NCBI RefSeq assembly: GCF_000144915.1
Contig: NC_014374.1
Coordinates: 868,001-932,000, forward strand
Length of the DNA stretch: 64,000 nucleotides
Direction: 5' to 3'
Source: Acidilobus saccharovorans 345-15
GTDB lineage: Archaea > Thermoproteota > Thermoprotei_A > Sulfolobales > Acidilobaceae
The notes below the pieces were generated by a model. The model was not told the origin of the DNA and made no database searches. It was given only the letters and a program-made list of their open reading frames with translations. Shown piece after piece: positions 1,504 to 47,180 of this stretch (positions within the stretch are counted from its first letter, which is position 1; every line of letters begins with the position of its first letter). Both the position numbers and the translations under genes were made by a program.

Positions 1504-3072
1504 TTAAACGGGCTCTATGGTTGACGGTGGCTTGGTGGTCACAGCGTACGTTACCATCACAACCTCAGGCACCTCAGACGTTATCCTTGAGGCTATGCGC
1601 TGCAGCAGATCATACGGGAGCCTCGCCCAGTCAGCAGTCATGCCGTCCTCGCTTTCAACGACCCTCACTGTTACTATGTAGCCGAAGGCCCTCCTGTCGC
1701 CCTTGACTCCCACCCACTTGTCGTCGCCAACGACGGCAAAGGCCTGCCAGACCGAGTTGTAAAGGCCCGCCCTCCTCAGCTCCTCCTCTACTATCATTGA
1801 CGCTCTCCTTGCTATCCTGAGCTTCTCCTCTGTGACCTCACCTATGACCCTGACCGCGAGGCCGGGCCCTGGGAACGGGTGCCTCATAGCAATGCTCTCA
1901 GGGATGCCGAGGGAGAGGGCGAGCCTCCTGACCTCGTCCTTGTAGAGGTACCTGAGGGGCTCTATCACCCTGAGGCCCAGGTCCCTGGGAAGGCCCCCCA
2001 CGTTGTGGTGGCTCTTAATCCTGTCAGCCCCCGCCTCAGCGCCGCTCTCGATGACGTCAGGGTATGTCGTGCCCTGAACCAGCCACCTTATCGAGCTGTC
2101 CGAGGTGGCCACCTCCTTGAAGACTTCAGCAAACACCTTCCCTACTACAAGCCTCTTCTGCTCAGGGTCCGTCACCCCCTTCAGGGCCCTCAGGAACCTG
2201 TCAGAGGCGTCTATGTAAATGGGGTTCAGCCCCAGGGACTTCAGCGCGCTTAGCACCTCCTCCGCCTCGCCCTCCCTCAACAGGCCGTGATTTATGAAGA
2301 CCACGACCGCCCTGTCGCCCAGGGCCCTTTTTGCTATGACTGCAGCCGTGGTCGAGTCGACGCCACCGCTGACCGCGACTATAGCTTTATCTTCACGAGG
2401 AATCTGGGACCTCACCTGTTCCACGAGCTTCTCGGCGAGGCCCTCAACGCTCCAGGTGGGCCTTACCTTAGCTACCTTGAAGAGGAAGTTGGCAATCAGC
2501 TTCACCCCTTTCTCCGTGTGCCTGACCTCTGGGTGGAACTGAACCCCGTAGATCTTGTCACCGGCCTTCATGGCTGCTATGTAGCCCGTGTCCTTTGATG
2601 TGGCCAGAACCTTGACGCCGGGACCCACCGAGGCCACGTAATCCGAGTGGCTCATCCAGACGTCCTCTTCCCTGCCCCAGCCGTCAAAGAGCGGGTCAGG
2701 CCCGTCAACCGTGACCCTGGTCCTCCCGTACTCTCCCTGCCCCCTCTCCACCCTCCCCCCAGTCATCTCGGCCAGGAGCTGGTGCCCATAGCATATGCCC
2801 AGCACGGGAAGGCCGAGCTTCAGGACCCAGTCCCCTATGGCAGGGGCCCCCGGCTCGTAGACGCTGCTCGGGCCCCCGGACAGTATTATTGCCCTGGGCC
2901 TCAGCTCCTCAACGGTGCTCTGGCTGACCGCGGCGTAAGGCACCACCTCGCTGTAGACTCCGAGGTCCCTGACCCTCCTTGATATCATGTGGGCGTACTG
3001 GCCCCCGAAGCTAATGATCAGCACAGTGTCGTGCTCCGCGCTGGGGCTCCACGACACCTCAGGACACCTCAA
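1504..3072 (-). CDS. guaA: GMP synthase (glutamine-hydrolysing), fused form
   Basis: Converts XMP to GMP using ATP and ammonia from glutamine. An N-terminal class I amidotransferase domain carries GICYGHQ (Cys about 94) and QFHPEV (His about 180, Glu about 182). The ATP-pyrophosphatase domain has the PP-loop SGGVDSTT near residue 235. The C-terminal dimerisation domain ends in TTKPPSTIEPV, close to the usual family tail. Many archaea encode these domains as two proteins; here they are fused. The longest frame starts at TTG 3072, overlapping adenine deaminase by 14 bases. GTG at 3024 (giving MLIISFGGQYAH) fits family N-termini better. Confidence 0.95.
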   Translation of the reverse strand: MRCPEVSWSPSAEHDTVLIISFGGQYAHMISRRVRDLGVYSEVVPYAAVSQSTVEELRPRAIILSGGPSSVYEPGAPAIGDWVLKLGLPVLGICYGHQLLAEMTGGRVERGQGEYGRTRVTVDGPDPLFDGWGREEDVWMSHSDYVASVGPGVKVLATSKDTGYIAAMKAGDKIYGVQFHPEVRHTEKGVKLIANFLFKVAKVRPTWSVEGLAEKLVEQVRSQIPREDKAIVAVSGGVDSTTAAVIAKRALGDRAVVVFINHGLLREGEAEEVLSALKSLGLNPIYIDASDRFLRALKGVTDPEQKRLVVGKVFAEVFKEVATSDSSIRWLVQGTTYPDVIESGAEAGADRIKSHHNVGGLPRDLGLRVIEPLRYLYKDEVRRLALSLGIPESIAMRHPFPGPGLAVRVIGEVTEEKLRIARRASMIVEEELRRAGLYNSVWQAFAVVGDDKWVGVKGDRRAFGYIVTVRVVESEDGMTADWARLPYDLLQRIASRITSEVPEVVMVTYAVTTKPPSTIEPV

Positions 3073-42098: not shown

Positions 42099-42875
42099 TT
42101 AATTAGCTAAGCCCCGGGCCCTTGAAGGCACCCTGGCCTCCAGGAACATCAGCTTAAGGGCACCCATGTAGGGCTCCGGCACCCCTAGGGCCTCAAGGTC
42201 CCTGACAATGAGGCTGGCGTCATATTTGGCCCTCTTTAGCTCCACTTTACCGTTATCAACGTCAATGACCGCGTAGGCCGCCCTCGGGTCCCCGTCCCTT
42301 GGCTGGCCCACGCTGCCCGGGTTCATGAGGAGGCTGCCCCCGACCCTCCTCATAAACTGGTAATGCGTGTGCCCCACCAGGTACATGGAATAGCCCGGCC
42401 TGTTGCCAGCGGGCAATGAGAGCCTGAGGCTCCTCACTAGCATTTTCCTTACGGAGTCGTCATCAAGCCATGGATAGACGTAGCCGTAAAGGGGGCTTGA
42501 GGGGGAACCGTGAACTGCCATCGACCTCCCCATGTAGCCTAGGTCGAGCTCCAGCCGCTCAGGCCATGAAGCTATAAACGCTAAATCGCCACGGGAAACC
42601 AGCCTTTTCGTGAAGTTCTCCCTGAAGAAGACGCTTACCCAGTGAGTCTCCTCGCCGCACATGCAGTCAACGCCGTGAACCAAGGCGTTATCATGGTTCC
42701 CCATGACAGCCCTTGCGCCAACGGACCTAAGTATGTCTATAACCTCGCCTGGCCTTGGGCCATAGTCCACGGCGTCCCCAAGAAACAGCACCTCGTCGTA
42801 GCTCTCAGAGCTAATAACGGCACGTAAGGCATAAGGGTTTCCGTGAGCGTCGCTCAGCACCAACAGCTTCGTCAT
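42099..42875 (-). CDS. Calcineurin-like metallophosphoesterase
   Basis: Dimetal site motifs in order: LSDAHGNPYAL, LGDAVDYGP, VMGNHDNALVHG, MAVHGSP, VGHTHYQF, then NPGSVGQPRDGDPRAAY, the tail typical of the YfcE/MJ0936 phosphodiesterase group. 258 aa, soluble, substrate unknown. It has a short A/T-rich promoter region and stands alone. Confidence 0.88.
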   Translation of the reverse strand: MTKLLVLSDAHGNPYALRAVISSESYDEVLFLGDAVDYGPRPGEVIDILRSVGARAVMGNHDNALVHGVDCMCGEETHWVSVFFRENFTKRLVSRGDLAFIASWPERLELDLGYMGRSMAVHGSPSSPLYGYVYPWLDDDSVRKMLVRSLRLSLPAGNRPGYSMYLVGHTHYQFMRRVGGSLLMNPGSVGQPRDGDPRAAYAVIDVDNGKVELKRAKYDASLIVRDLEALGVPEPYMGALKLMFLEARVPSRARGLAN

Positions 42876-43015
42876 GATCTCTAGCCCTGAAACCCCTTAC
42901 ACTACGCTGCTGAATTTAGGGACGTTTATGTACATAACTCGCTTGCCTTCATGGCACAGAACGAACGACAAGCCTTGCCCTTCAGGGCGTAGGGGCCGGC
43001 CAACTTACAGGCAGG

Positions 43016-43093
43016 TGGTGGGCCCGGCCGGACTTGAACCGGCGACCTCCGCCGTGTCAGGGCGGCGTCCTAACCAATCTAGACTACGGGCCC
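43016..43093 (-). tRNA. tRNA-Val (anticodon GAC), CCA encoded
   Basis: Read on the minus strand, acceptor GGGCCCG pairs with CGGGCCC; anticodon arm CCGCC-CTGACAC-GGCGG carries GAC; the T arm is GCCGG-TTCAAGT-CCGGC. Discriminator A (43019) is followed by CCA (43018-43016). CTTAAAAAC about 29 bases upstream is a good TATA box. No intron. Confidence 0.94.
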
Positions 43094-43178
43094 ACCAGCA
43101 CTCTTGGCTTTCGGCCTAGTTTTTAAGCTCTGTGCAGCCGCAAAAGTTAATAGTAAGGTATAAGATATTTCGGTTAGC

Positions 43179-44690
43179 TTGATACTCAAGGTGGCCGGCT
43201 TGGAGTACAAGTGGAAGGCGCTGTCAGTTACAAGCGTCGGCTCGCTGATGTCGGCAATAGACAGCACCGTGGTGCTCCTGGCACTCGTTCCCATAGCTGA
43301 GGACCTTCACGCCGACTACGTGACCATAGTCTGGATAGTTGTAGCTTACCTTCTCGCCAACACTTCCCTGGTGCTCACTTTTGGAAGGGTCGGCGACACC
43401 TACGGGAGGAAGAAGATATACAACGCCGGCTTCGTAGTCTTCACAATAGGCTCCCTGCTCTCGGCGCTGTCCCAGAGCGGCCTTGAGCTGGTGGCCTTCA
43501 GGGCCCTGCAGGGCATAGGCTCGGCTATGATGCTATCAAACTCCCTTGCAATAATTTCTGAGGCGTTCCCAGTCAACGAGAGGGGCAGGGCGCTGGGCAT
43601 TAACTCCATAGTGTGGTCCTCGGGCACGGTGCTCGGCATAATCCTAGGAGGGCTAATAATAACGTATACCACGTGGAGGTGGATATTCCTGATCAACGTG
43701 CCCATAGGAATCTTTGGGACGGCGTGGGCTTACGCGACCCTCAGGGAGACTAAGTTCAGGAGGGTCGGCGAAAACTTTGACGTGCCCGCGGCCGTCCTGT
43801 TCACTTTGGGTATACTCGCGCTCCAGCTGGGCTTCACTTTAGGCCTCCTAAGGGGGTGGTCCGACGTGTACACGCTGCTGTCATTTGCGGCGGCACCCCC
43901 GCTGCTCGCGGCGTTCGCCTTCTGGGAGCTGTATAAGGTTAGGGACCCTATCGTAGACCTCAGGATGTTTAAGTACAACAGAATGTTCACGGCGTCAATA
44001 TTCACGGCAACCGTGCAGAGCCTGGCCATGTTTGCGGTAAACTTCCTCCTCCTGTTCTACCTTGAGGGCATATTCGGCCTGCCAGTGCTGACGGCCTCCT
44101 ACTTAATAATACCCATGGCCGCCGTCAACATGATAGCTGGTCCCATAGGGGGCAGGCTGACCGACAAGTATGGTCCGAGGCCAATAGCCACGGCAGGCCT
44201 TGTAATACAGGGCGCTGCGCTGTTCCTGCTAGCGATGATGAACGCCAGGACCCCGCTCTGGTGGGTTGCCATGGTGGAGGGCATCTATGGCCTTGGAGGC
44301 GGCCTCTTCTGGCCCTCAAACACGACAGCCGTAATATCGTCAGCTCCCAGGGAGAGGTATGGGGTCGCCTCTGGGACTCTAACCACGTTCAGGAACACGG
44401 GAATGATCCTGAGCTTCGCCGTCTCCTTGACGTCGGTGACGGCCGCCCTGCCTGCGTACTACGTCTACCAGCTCTTTGTCGGCACTTTGAGCGGCCACCT
44501 CCCCTCGTCGTTAATGGTAAGCTACCTCAACGCCCAGGCCTTCGCCTACCATGTCTCCCTTGGGCTTCTGGCCATAGCTGCAGTGCTCTCGGCCCTCAGG
44601 CCTTCGGGCACCCTCGCTAGGCACTCGGGGATGAAGGAGGTCGCCGCCCACCCTATGGTTAGGACAAGCGATGATAACGGCAGGAGCTAA
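43179..44690 (+). CDS. MFS drug exporter, DHA2 (14-helix) type
   Basis: A 503-aa protein with fourteen hydrophobic helices. The DHA2 signatures are DSTVVLLALVPIAEDL in helix 1, GRVGDTYGRKKIYNAG in loop 2-3, and SGTVLGIILGGLIITYTTWRWIFLINVPIG spanning helices 5 and 6. Such pumps export toxic or amphipathic compounds. Start is TTG 43179, or GTG 43191. The end overlaps the longest MEMO frame, but not the preferred one. Confidence 0.88.
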   Translation: MILKVAGLEYKWKALSVTSVGSLMSAIDSTVVLLALVPIAEDLHADYVTIVWIVVAYLLANTSLVLTFGRVGDTYGRKKIYNAGFVVFTIGSLLSALSQSGLELVAFRALQGIGSAMMLSNSLAIISEAFPVNERGRALGINSIVWSSGTVLGIILGGLIITYTTWRWIFLINVPIGIFGTAWAYATLRETKFRRVGENFDVPAAVLFTLGILALQLGFTLGLLRGWSDVYTLLSFAAAPPLLAAFAFWELYKVRDPIVDLRMFKYNRMFTASIFTATVQSLAMFAVNFLLLFYLEGIFGLPVLTASYLIIPMAAVNMIAGPIGGRLTDKYGPRPIATAGLVIQGAALFLLAMMNARTPLWWVAMVEGIYGLGGGLFWPSNTTAVISSAPRERYGVASGTLTTFRNTGMILSFAVSLTSVTAALPAYYVYQLFVGTLSGHLPSSLMVSYLNAQAFAYHVSLGLLAIAAVLSALRPSGTLARHSGMKEVAAHPMVRTSDDNGRS

Positions 44691-44733
44691 CTGTTTAAAT
44701 TTTGATCGCCCAGCTAGCCCAGGTGAAGAGCTG

Positions 44734-45600
44734 GTGCAGGAAATAAGGAAGCCCGCCCACGCTGGCAGCTTTTACCCTGCTGACAGGGATGACCTTGTAA
44801 AGTCAATAGAGTCAAGCTTCCTTCACAGGCTTGGCCCAGGAAAGCTCCCCCAGGCGCCGCCCTCAAGGAATAGGACAAGCGTTGGCTACCTGGTGCCCCA
44901 CGCAGGTTACATGTATAGCGGCCCCGTCGCCGCGCATAGCTACTATAACATGGCTCAGGAGGGAGCCCCCAAGGTAGTTGTGGTGGCAGGCCCCAACCAC
45001 ACGGGCCTCGGCGAGGCCGCCTCGCTCTGGCAGGGGGACGCGTGGGAGACCCCCCTTGGAACTGTTGAGGTTGACAGAGAGGTCGAGAAACTGATAATAT
45101 CAAATACCAAGTACTTCACCTTCGATAATGAGGCGCACCTGTACGAGCACTCGGTGGAGGTCCAGGTCCCATTCCTTCAGTATATCTTTGACTCCAACTT
45201 TAAGCTCGTCCCCATAGTGATAAAGCTTCAGAACCCTGAGGTGTCCAAGGACCTAGCAGACGCCCTAGTCAAGATAATTAATGAGAACGGGGTTGACCTG
45301 CTCTTCGTGGCCAGCAGTGACATGAACCACTACGAGCCCCACGACGTGACTGTCTCAAAGGATAACGAGGCCCTGAGGTACGTGGAGTCCCTGGACCCCG
45401 AGGGGCTTTTCAGGGTGCTTGAAGCAGACGACATAACCATGTGCGGGCCAGGCCCGGCGATGACACTGCTTTACATGGGAAGAAGCCTGGGCGCCACCAG
45501 GGCCGTCATATTGAAGCACGCAACGTCAGGTGACGTGACCGGCGAGAAGGACTGGGTAGTTGGCTACGCCTCCGCCGTGGTGCCGCTTCCTGGCAAGTAA
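44734..45600 (+). CDS. MEMO1-family (extradiol dioxygenase-fold) protein
   Basis: Motifs: RKPAHAGSFYPAD, GYLVPHAGYMYSGPVAAHSY, VAGPNHTGLG, LYEHSVEVQVPFLQ, SSDMNHYEP and MCGPGPAM. The conserved His residues correspond to the metal site of related dioxygenases. In archaea the gene usually sits in the mevalonate cluster, as it does here; its function is not settled. I start it at GTG 44734 (MQEIRKPAHAG), preceded by AGGTGAAG and by the TATA-like TTTAAATTTT at 44694-44703. The frame is open to 44671, inside the MFS gene. Confidence 0.9.
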   Translation: MQEIRKPAHAGSFYPADRDDLVKSIESSFLHRLGPGKLPQAPPSRNRTSVGYLVPHAGYMYSGPVAAHSYYNMAQEGAPKVVVVAGPNHTGLGEAASLWQGDAWETPLGTVEVDREVEKLIISNTKYFTFDNEAHLYEHSVEVQVPFLQYIFDSNFKLVPIVIKLQNPEVSKDLADALVKIINENGVDLLFVASSDMNHYEPHDVTVSKDNEALRYVESLDPEGLFRVLEADDITMCGPGPAMTLLYMGRSLGATRAVILKHATSGDVTGEKDWVVGYASAVVPLPGK

Positions 45601-45621: not shown

Positions 45622-46410
45622 TTGAGGCTCTCGCTAAGGCTGCCCCTCATAGTGATGGGCATTCCAATAGATGAGGTGGTAAACCCTTACCTAGTAGTGC
45701 CGGGCGAGCAGGTGAAGTTTGAGCTGAAGTACCAGGAGAACTGTGAAAGGGCTGACCTCAGCGCCGAGGGCTTGTCACAGGAGGTTGTCGGAAAGGCCAG
45801 GGAGTTCTGGAGAAGGCTGATGAGCGGCCTTAACATGAACGACTGCTCCTACGTTAGGTCAGAGGGCCTGCCCCAGAGGCGGCCCGTTGCAAGCACCTAT
45901 GCGGCCTTAACAACGGCGCTCCTTTACCTCACCGCCAGGTCGCACTCGGACACAGTGGACGAGCTGGAGATAGTCGAGATGGGAAGGATGTCAGACCCCT
46001 GGGGGGAGGGGGCCACGTGGTGGCAGAGCTCCATAGACGCCATGAGGTACGTGGCCGCCAGCGGCAAGGCCGCTGCGTACAGGAGCGAGGATGAAGTCGT
46101 TGACCTGCAGTTGGGCCGGGTAGACCTTAACATGGAGGTCAGGGCGTCCTCTGTGGTTGGAAAGGGGGCCACAAGGCAGGAGCTGGGCGAGAGCCTCTTT
46201 GACGCGGCGGTGCACATGATAGGCCAGGCCGTCGTGGACCTCTCGGACTCCCTTACGTCAGGCTCCCCACTTAGGGGTGAGCTAGTTAAGAGGCTGAGGG
46301 TTCAGAACGCGGCAGCCTACCTCTTCTATGGGGTGCAGACGCCCCAGGGGGAGTGCGAGTGGGTCCCCGGGCTTCCTGGCGAGCTTGAGCTGATGTGCCT
46401 TACGGCCTAG
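45622..46410 (+). CDS. Unrecognised protein in the MEMO-IPK cluster (possible divergent GHMP-kinase fold)
   Basis: A 262-aa soluble protein. In crenarchaea the slot between MEMO and isopentenyl phosphate kinase often holds mevalonate kinase, a GHMP-superfamily enzyme. Here no PxxxGLGSSA motif is visible; RRPVASTYAALTTALLYLTA is the nearest match, and somewhat resembles the serine-rich helix of diphosphomevalonate decarboxylases. WGEGATWWQSSIDAMR and NMEVRASSVVGKGATRQEL are other distinctive stretches. Function is unknown; involvement in isoprenoid synthesis is an inference from position only. Confidence 0.6.
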   Translation: MRLSLRLPLIVMGIPIDEVVNPYLVVPGEQVKFELKYQENCERADLSAEGLSQEVVGKAREFWRRLMSGLNMNDCSYVRSEGLPQRRPVASTYAALTTALLYLTARSHSDTVDELEIVEMGRMSDPWGEGATWWQSSIDAMRYVAASGKAAAYRSEDEVVDLQLGRVDLNMEVRASSVVGKGATRQELGESLFDAAVHMIGQAVVDLSDSLTSGSPLRGELVKRLRVQNAAAYLFYGVQTPQGECEWVPGLPGELELMCLTA

Positions 46411-46451: not shown

Positions 46452-47180
46452 TTGAGGTGCAACCTAGCTGTAGTCAAGCTGGGGGGCTCCGCTATAACCG
46501 ATAAGTCCTCGCCAGAGACCGTCAGGTGGGACGTGCTTGAGAGCCTCTCCGCGCAGGTGGCCAGCTACCTCAAGGCGGGCGGACGGCTGGCCCTAGTCCA
46601 CGGCGGGGGTAGCTTTGGACATTACATAGTGAGCAGGCTGCTCTCCGAGAGAGGAAGGCTAGGCCCCAGCGAGGTCTCAGAAGTGCAGAGGGAGATGCTC
46701 CTTCTCGGAATTACCGTGGTCAACAGCCTCCTGTCGCACGGGGTGCCCGTTAGCCTTCATGCCGCCCACAGCATGTGTGTCGGCGAGAGAAGCTGTGAGC
46801 TGACCCCGATGCTAAGGGACCTCGCGGCCGGCCTAACGCCGCTAACTTATGGGGACGCCGTGCTCACTGAAAGGGGAGGGGTGGTAGTAAGCGGCGACAC
46901 CATAGCGTCCATGCTGGCCTCTGAGGCTAAGGCTGACTGCCTGATCTACGTGTCTGACGTCGATGGCGTAATAGGCCCTGAGGGAAAGGTCTTAAGGGTT
47001 GTAAGCCCAAGGGATGAAATAGCTGACATAACCAAACGTGGGGTTGACGTCACGGGCAGCATGAAGGGTAAGATCGCTGAGGCGGCCTCAGCCAAGGTCG
47101 CGAACACCAGGATAGTCAGGTGGGACTCGCTCCTGAGGGCCCTTAACGGCGAGGAGGTAGGCACTAGGGTCGTGCCCTGA
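46452..47180 (+). CDS. Isopentenyl phosphate kinase
   Basis: Phosphorylates isopentenyl phosphate to IPP in the archaeal mevalonate pathway. An amino acid kinase fold is shown by VVKLGGSAITDKS (ATP and phosphate Lys), VHGGGSFGHYI with the diagnostic His, VSGDTIASMLA, YVSDVDGVIG and DVTGSMKGKI. 242 aa. It follows the unknown gene after 41 bases and overlaps the 3' end of the convergent Bax1 gene by 17 bases. Confidence 0.93.
   Translation: MRCNLAVVKLGGSAITDKSSPETVRWDVLESLSAQVASYLKAGGRLALVHGGGSFGHYIVSRLLSERGRLGPSEVSEVQREMLLLGITVVNSLLSHGVPVSLHAAHSMCVGERSCELTPMLRDLAAGLTPLTYGDAVLTERGGVVVSGDTIASMLASEAKADCLIYVSDVDGVIGPEGKVLRVVSPRDEIADITKRGVDVTGSMKGKIAEAASAKVANTRIVRWDSLLRALNGEEVGTRVVP

Follow-up and report, generated by a model that had tools for sequence, protein, structure and literature searches.

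Which protein is encoded between a MEMO family protein and isopentenyl phosphate kinase (IPK) in Acidilobus saccharovorans 345-15, at a place where a mevalonate kinase (MVK) might be expected? The window analysed here is a stretch of 64,000 nucleotides from the genome of this archaeon, which is a single contig of 1,496,453 bp. At positions 45622–46410 of its forward strand lies a real open reading frame (ORF) of 262 amino acids with a TTG start and a TAG stop, hereafter called X. In the alignment, the start column is common to two other genomes of the genus (L007 and L008), with a leucine-type codon readable as a start.

The MEMO-X-IPK locus and the separate mevalonate kinase

Directly upstream of X on the same strand (44671–45600), the gene of the MEMO family protein (AmmeMemoRadiSam system protein B) matched Pfam PF01875 (Memo, E 1.3e-82) and NCBIfam TIGR04336 (AmmeMemoSam_B, E 1.9e-96). 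Directly downstream (46452–47180, forward strand), the IPK gene was identified by NF040647 (NCBIfam IPPK_Arch, 133.1 bits; cut-off 120) and by its translation, which contains the segment GGGSFGH, presumably the holder of the catalytic His. The three genes are co-directional, with gaps of 21 nt between the MEMO stop and X and 41 nt between X and the IPK start. These coordinates and family matches of the neighbours bear out the earlier note, which had described an ORF with no assigned family between MEMO and IPK. Its statement that the motif of GHMP kinases is not recognisable in X was likewise correct. The sole Pfam match was HOATZ-like (E 0.049, 13.6 bits; cut-off 25), no NCBIfam family matched, and no GHMP or MVK model of either collection was reached in scans to E 10, in which filtering removes most matches weaker than about 0.1. 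The sequences of the Protein Data Bank (PDB) gave only chance matches, such as a VHH antibody at E 0.15. Elsewhere in the window, a tRNA-Val gene (43016–43093, reverse strand) overlaps the forward-strand ORF at 42874–43119, which is therefore probably not a protein gene.

The genome encodes MVK at another place. A PF00288 search found five GHMP genes, and X was not among them. One of the five, G000:C1:1427909-1428820, about 0.5 Mb from X, is an MVK with complete motif 1, P-loop, PSGxD, and GAGxGG. Its relatives occur throughout the order, with E values of 1.7e-130 and 4.8e-126 in the genus and weaker ones elsewhere. A match to it at E <= 1e-5, weak in a few cases, was present in 142 of the 147 order genomes, this one included. 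In one X-carrying genome that is 67% complete (G134), the match reached only 8.6e-7 and MVK is not established. The proposal that X is the missing mevalonate kinase was thus rejected. From their translations, the other four GHMP genes look like a galactokinase (beside a GalT-like gene), a pantoate-kinase-like protein, and two ribofuranosylaminobenzene-phosphate-synthase-like proteins. The MVK frame itself (L036, G000:C1, about 2430–2475, reverse strand) offers no ATG, GTG, or TTG ahead of motif 1, and the first listed start comes just after GEH. About 55 nt before motif 1 there is a TATA-like stretch (ttaaatat), so the gene may use an unusual start codon, or the sequence may contain an error.

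Fold, motifs, and extent of the X family

An AF2 model of X built from 13 sequences had a pLDDT of 91.2 and a pTM of 0.91, and showed the GHMP fold over the whole chain in comparisons with Foldseek and VIA. (A second model, of the X protein of L105 without an alignment, reached a pLDDT of 32.5 and was not used.) Foldseek returned 158 PDB chains at E <= 0.001; among the best 50 listed, with TM-scores of about 0.4–0.6, rank 1 was the MVK 2x7i (E 8.8e-10). The best VIA match was Leishmania MVK (Z 17.1, rmsd 3.4 over 250 residues). The 50 VIA rows listed, all of which we take, in part from their titles, to be GHMP-superfamily proteins, ran from Z 17.1 to 13.5. MVKs stood on top, and since galactokinase and phosphomevalonate kinase followed within about 1 Z, the fold alone does not pick out MVK. 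The possibility raised earlier that X would have a fold unrelated to GHMP kinases was therefore not borne out by either program.

The profile-profile comparison proposed in the earlier note, which covered MVK as the GHMP family, pointed to MVK. With hhalign, the X profile matched 30 MVKs with a probability of 97.2 in global and 95.0 in local mode (local E 4e-8). X resembles archaeal MVK in this profile similarity, in its VIA scores against the listed MVKs (Z 13.9–17.1), and in the slot between MEMO and IPK that MVK occupies outside the class. It differs in length (262 aa, compared with 312–332 aa for the 30 MVKs trimmed near motif 1), in not keeping the kinase motifs, and in the presence of a separate MVK in the genome. 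We consider it almost certain that X is an MVK-related protein of the GHMP fold. The GHMP decarboxylases (diphosphomevalonate and phosphomevalonate decarboxylase) also share this fold and stand high in the Foldseek list, but have lower VIA scores (Z 13.6 for 6n0z). They use ATP and the GHMP motifs, which X does not have.

The motifs were compared by aligning 37 X sequences with 53 MVK rows (18 slot and 35 unlinked) and with the five intermediates described in the next section. The 53 MVK rows represent 52 genes, the MVK gene of G135 having been entered twice (L065 and L212). Left out of the counts were the most divergent X rows, those of the family f3 loci L119 and L130–L134, and also L135, L193, L195, L203, and L204. 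Residues G13–P22 of X (GIPIDEVVNP; 45658–45687, forward strand) lie over GHMP motif 1 (K...GEH). The Lys, Glu, and His of this motif were each found in none of the 37 X sequences versus all 53 MVK rows, which had been cut by the motif-1 pattern, present in all 53 loci tried. Residues 86–100 (45877–45921, forward strand) align to the P-loop (GLGSSA) and are three residues shorter: GLGSS of MVK falls on a three-residue gap followed by T-Y. The second Ser, present in 53/53 MVK rows, was found in 0/37 X sequences, being replaced by Tyr93 in 36/37, and the two Gly columns hold Gly in one and two of the 37 (53/53 each in MVK). The segment RRPVASTYAALTTALLYLTA, once suggested to be a P-loop remnant, does contain the part that aligns to the P-loop. 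Residues 244–262 (ECEWVPGLPG...; 46351–46407, forward strand) lie over motif 3 (GAGxGG), whose four Gly columns in GxGxGG are occupied by Gly in 1/37, 2/37, 11/37, and 1/37 X sequences, versus 53/53 each in MVK.

The region D125–E156 (45994–46089, forward strand) lies over the Mg-Glu and catalytic-Asp region of MVK. The catalytic Asp column (PSGxD; 53/53 in MVK) holds Asp in 10/37 X sequences, and the alignment is gapped there. D125 falls in the column of a Glu that we assume to be Mg-binding in MVK. In X this column holds Asp in 34/37 sequences and Glu in the other three, so that an acidic residue is present in all 37, and it may leave room for metal binding. X also has conserved residues of its own. 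N21 (34/37), R142 (36/37), R154 (36/37), and G201 (35/37) are shared by all five intermediates and are absent or unconserved in MVKs. P22 is found in 36/37 X sequences, and residue 198 is basic in all 37 (His in 25, Lys in 9, and Arg in 3) and His in the five intermediates. With motif 1, the P-loop, the catalytic Asp, and motif 3 lost, X should not bind ATP or phosphorylate a substrate in the GHMP manner, and we think it very probable, judging from the alignment, that it has no GHMP-type kinase activity. X is thus predicted from its sequence to be a pseudokinase: an enzyme homologue that has lost its catalytic residues and whose gene is conserved. The earlier suggestion of a very divergent GHMP enzyme holds for the fold and the MVK position, but not for a GHMP enzyme of the usual kind, whose residues are missing or unconserved in the 37 sequences.

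A search with the single X sequence found relatives in 48 of the 147 order genomes. A 30-row profile raised this number to 98, a few of which were MVK only or chance matches. A 39-row profile matched in 136 of 197 class genomes (best E 1.1e-84), again with a few MVK-only or unidentified ones, and in the phylum matches were found in 61 of 250 genomes, many of those outside the class being MVKs or intermediates. Weak matches at MVK places numbered 10 in the order and 11 in the class search, and MVK rows were not counted as X in the order, class, or phylum searches. Five weak matches in the order search lay off MVK places. The one in G071 is not X, as its 460-aa ORF (L205) reads as a membrane serine-protease-like protein; those in G077 and G089 were set aside on their 460-aa ORF length alone; and the second matches of G082 and G141 were not counted. 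In the class search, second or short matches in G154, G157, G175, G187, and G039 were likewise not counted as X. Within the family of A. saccharovorans, X was matched in 37 of the 41 rows shown in the class search and not in G093, G133, G181, and G203. In G093 (L154) and G133 (L156), IPK follows MEMO directly with no X between them, and the role of X is therefore dispensable there. A 72-aa frame in G133 with a marginal X match (E 0.007) is perhaps a remnant.

Origin of X in the mevalonate kinase slot

Among 85 X loci, 67 showed the order MEMO-X-IPK on one strand. IPK was missing beside MEMO-X in seven (one of them at a contig edge), MEMO was missing beside X-IPK in 10 (five of them at the edge of the examined stretch), and one locus had neither neighbour. 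Eight X places had been fetched twice; with each counted once, MEMO-X-IPK was found in 59 of 77. The earlier note had named, as evidence against its idea, a bona fide kinase elsewhere together with X outside such clusters: the kinase exists elsewhere, but X mostly keeps the cluster. Its assumption that MVK fills the slot proved right for genomes of the same phylum that lie outside the class; in this order X is the usual occupant. Outside the class we examined 30 IPK loci, the best-scoring of 61 genomes searched and not a random draw. MEMO-MVK-IPK was found in 15 of them (MVK-profile E 1e-104 to 3e-70), MVK beside IPK with no MEMO within the stretch examined in three, and neither in 12. None of the 18 slot-MVK genomes has a second strong MVK: the slot gene matched at E 2e-128 to 1.9e-88, and any further GHMP match was 6e-23 or weaker. 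In 18 further genomes, 13 with X and five with intermediates, the best MVK lies at another place, mostly on another contig. No genome was seen with both a slot MVK and X: among the 18 slot-MVK genomes only G215, G236, and G243 matched the X profile, and the match was the slot MVK itself.

Two further features of the cluster were observed. In six genomes of family f3 (G002, G013, G024, G034, G044, and G061), MEMO lies within about 1.3 kb of MVK in the opposite orientation and X lies beside IPK; the cluster is split differently in them. The IPKs of six f1, f7, and f11 genomes scored 122–141 bits against the archaeal IPK model, versus about 200–263 bits in the 18 slot-MVK genomes. IPK is thus more divergent in the former, and kinship rather than X may be the cause.

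The best direct evidence for the descent of X from MVK is provided by five genomes of family f19 (L188–L192; same phylum, outside the class). Their slot proteins, of 270–283 aa from stop to stop, match both the X profile (E 3e-14 to 2e-8) and, nearly as well, the MVK profile (E 3e-11 to 1e-8). Like X, they lie between MEMO and IPK, have lost the P-loop and the catalytic Asp, have the conserved N, R, R, H, and G in all five proteins, and coexist with an MVK elsewhere in the genome. Unlike X, they keep GE..F of motif 1, the GG after the Asp region, and AK/GK of motif 3, and the D125 column is a gap in all five.

In a midpoint-rooted tree of 95 sequences, X formed its own long-branched group apart from all MVKs, with the f19 intermediates placed between the two (support 100 and 93). 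The slot MVKs did not separate from the unlinked ones, basal support being low (47 and 42), and X was not nested in the slot MVKs. With such a topology, a slot-copy origin of X rests on position and the intermediates, not on phylogeny, and because X branches fast, the tree is unreliable as to whether X branches from the slot MVKs. Decay of a slot MVK combined with long-branch effects would fit this tree, but an older duplication would fit it equally well. We consider a slot MVK the likely ancestor. Given that MVK occupies the slot outside the class and lies elsewhere in X genomes, and given the intermediates, X most likely descends from MVK and is a kinase no more.

X is under purifying selection. 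Its dN/dS was 0.06–0.21 in the eight closest of ten pairs, and 0.32 and 0.43 in the two most distant same-genus pairs, where dS is near or above 1. In the eight closest pairs, MEMO gave 0.05–0.12 (seven pairs with a value) and IPK 0.07–0.15 (seven pairs). The low ratios, together with homologues that occupy the MEMO-IPK interval in 67 of 85 loci, show that X is not a chance ORF.

Possible roles of X

The explanation that we hold, with a little more belief than doubt, is that X is a kinase-dead MVK descendant with a place in the mevalonate pathway; that this place is the non-catalytic one of a regulator or partner, rather than a catalytic step, is a more tentative part of it. X occupies the position of MVK in the MEMO-MVK-IPK cluster, with the working MVK gene elsewhere, and by its sequence and predicted structure it keeps the GHMP fold, has lost the motifs for ATP and catalysis, and conserves residues of its own (N21-P22, D125, R142, R154, basic 198, and G201). 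These basic residues may now hold, in the old active-site cleft, an anionic ligand from the isoprenoid pathway (a phosphorylated or carboxylated intermediate), and X might serve, for example, as a feedback sensor on MVK or together with MEMO. MEMO was present in 11 of 12 X genomes tested, 11 of which had been chosen since MEMO was unseen beside X; the exception is 70% complete. MEMO is a possible partner, though it is common also without X. As to the exact role, our best guess, a tentative one, is a putative ligand-binding regulator of the mevalonate pathway. A broader proposal, about which we are more doubtful, is that the MVK fold was rebuilt into a new ligand site (Asn-Pro, two Arg, basic 198, and D125), so that X would be a sensor or a new-chemistry enzyme that controls or extends isoprenoid synthesis in much of the Thermoproteota, independently of IPK.

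In most loci IPK is the next gene after X (67 of 85 as MEMO-X-IPK, and 10 more as X-IPK), and X might therefore be a subunit or activator dedicated to IPK. A mirror-tree analysis was carried out on 20 of the 30 genomes behind L006–L035, those with all four genes. The partial correlation of X was highest with IPK (0.42), followed by MEMO (0.34) and MVK (0.19), but the contrast was gone within its own family f1 (0.23, 0.28, and 0.19, respectively), and no clear partner was picked. Furthermore, IPK does not follow MEMO-X in six non-edge loci (L109, L117, L118, L200, L201, and L202). Among their genomes, IPK lies elsewhere in G004, G135, G167, and G208, and none was found in G189, which is 77% complete. 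The sixth, G078 (L109), belongs with G119, G131, and G141 to family f11, which we take to be Sulfolobaceae. All four genomes are 99% complete in one contig and keep X (E 5e-53 to 6e-57); no IPK above the cut-off was found in them, only weak partial matches of 43–44 bits, and IPK seems lost or unrecognisable. In G078, the only one of the four with the stretch examined, X lies beside MEMO with no IPK. The IPK model is not blind to f11, since it finds IPK in the f11 genomes G102 and G066; a control genome, Sulfolobus acidocaldarius, gave no IPK match at 1e-15. X therefore needs no IPK and is not simply an IPK subunit, and this reading was downgraded to an improbable one. A better, though still unlikely, candidate role is catalytic: the old fold would carry a new active site and perform non-kinase chemistry on an isoprenoid or related phosphate. 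The Arg pair (R142 and R154, 36/37 each), the basic residue 198 (37/37), and the acidic residue at 125 (37/37) could form such a site, and the purifying selection is in keeping with it. No known pathway step is evidently open, however, as most X genomes have both MVK and IPK, and X is missing in some relatives. X is also found in family f11, and the mevalonate route of Sulfolobaceae is reported to differ (PMC11052028), so that X is not tied to one pathway variant.

Retention of kinase activity would require that X use other residues for ATP. The predicted GHMP fold and D125 in the Mg-Glu column are what such a cryptic kinase would show, but the shortened P-loop, with Gly in its Gly columns in only one and two of 37 X sequences, the absence of the motif-1 Lys in all 37, and the loss of GxGxGG make it very improbable. 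Least credible of all is a decaying, functionless remnant kept in the operon by chance. X is indeed the fastest-evolving of the four genes compared (mean distance 2.65 versus 1.30–2.16), and it was not found in G093 and G133. On the other hand, the dN/dS of 0.06–0.21 in close pairs, and an open frame with its own conserved residues across an order and beyond, argue against decay.

A non-catalytic role on this fold has parallels in eukaryotes. XOL-1 of Caenorhabditis elegans and Gal3p of yeast are non-enzymatic GHMP proteins. Like X, if its predicted loss of activity holds, they use the GHMP fold with no kinase role, but they are eukaryotic regulators of unrelated processes. In the literature searched, as far as the parts available to us go (including PMC11052028, PMC3533463, and PMC4244643), the X family is not described, which is no proof of its absence from print; within these limits, no conserved archaeal family that takes the place of MVK within MVK's own cluster is described. 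The finding also corrects an annotation trap, in that these archaea do not encode MVK in the "MVK slot". The archaeal mevalonate pathway feeds membrane lipids, and to our knowledge little has been established about its regulation. Some Sulfolobaceae are genetically manipulable, and the occurrence of X in Sulfolobaceae-type genomes makes its role directly testable. Its preservation by selection, though the kinase parts are lost, points to an undescribed non-kinase role, and a kinase-dead MVK relative kept in the MVK position, with the real MVK elsewhere, is a ready candidate for a regulator.
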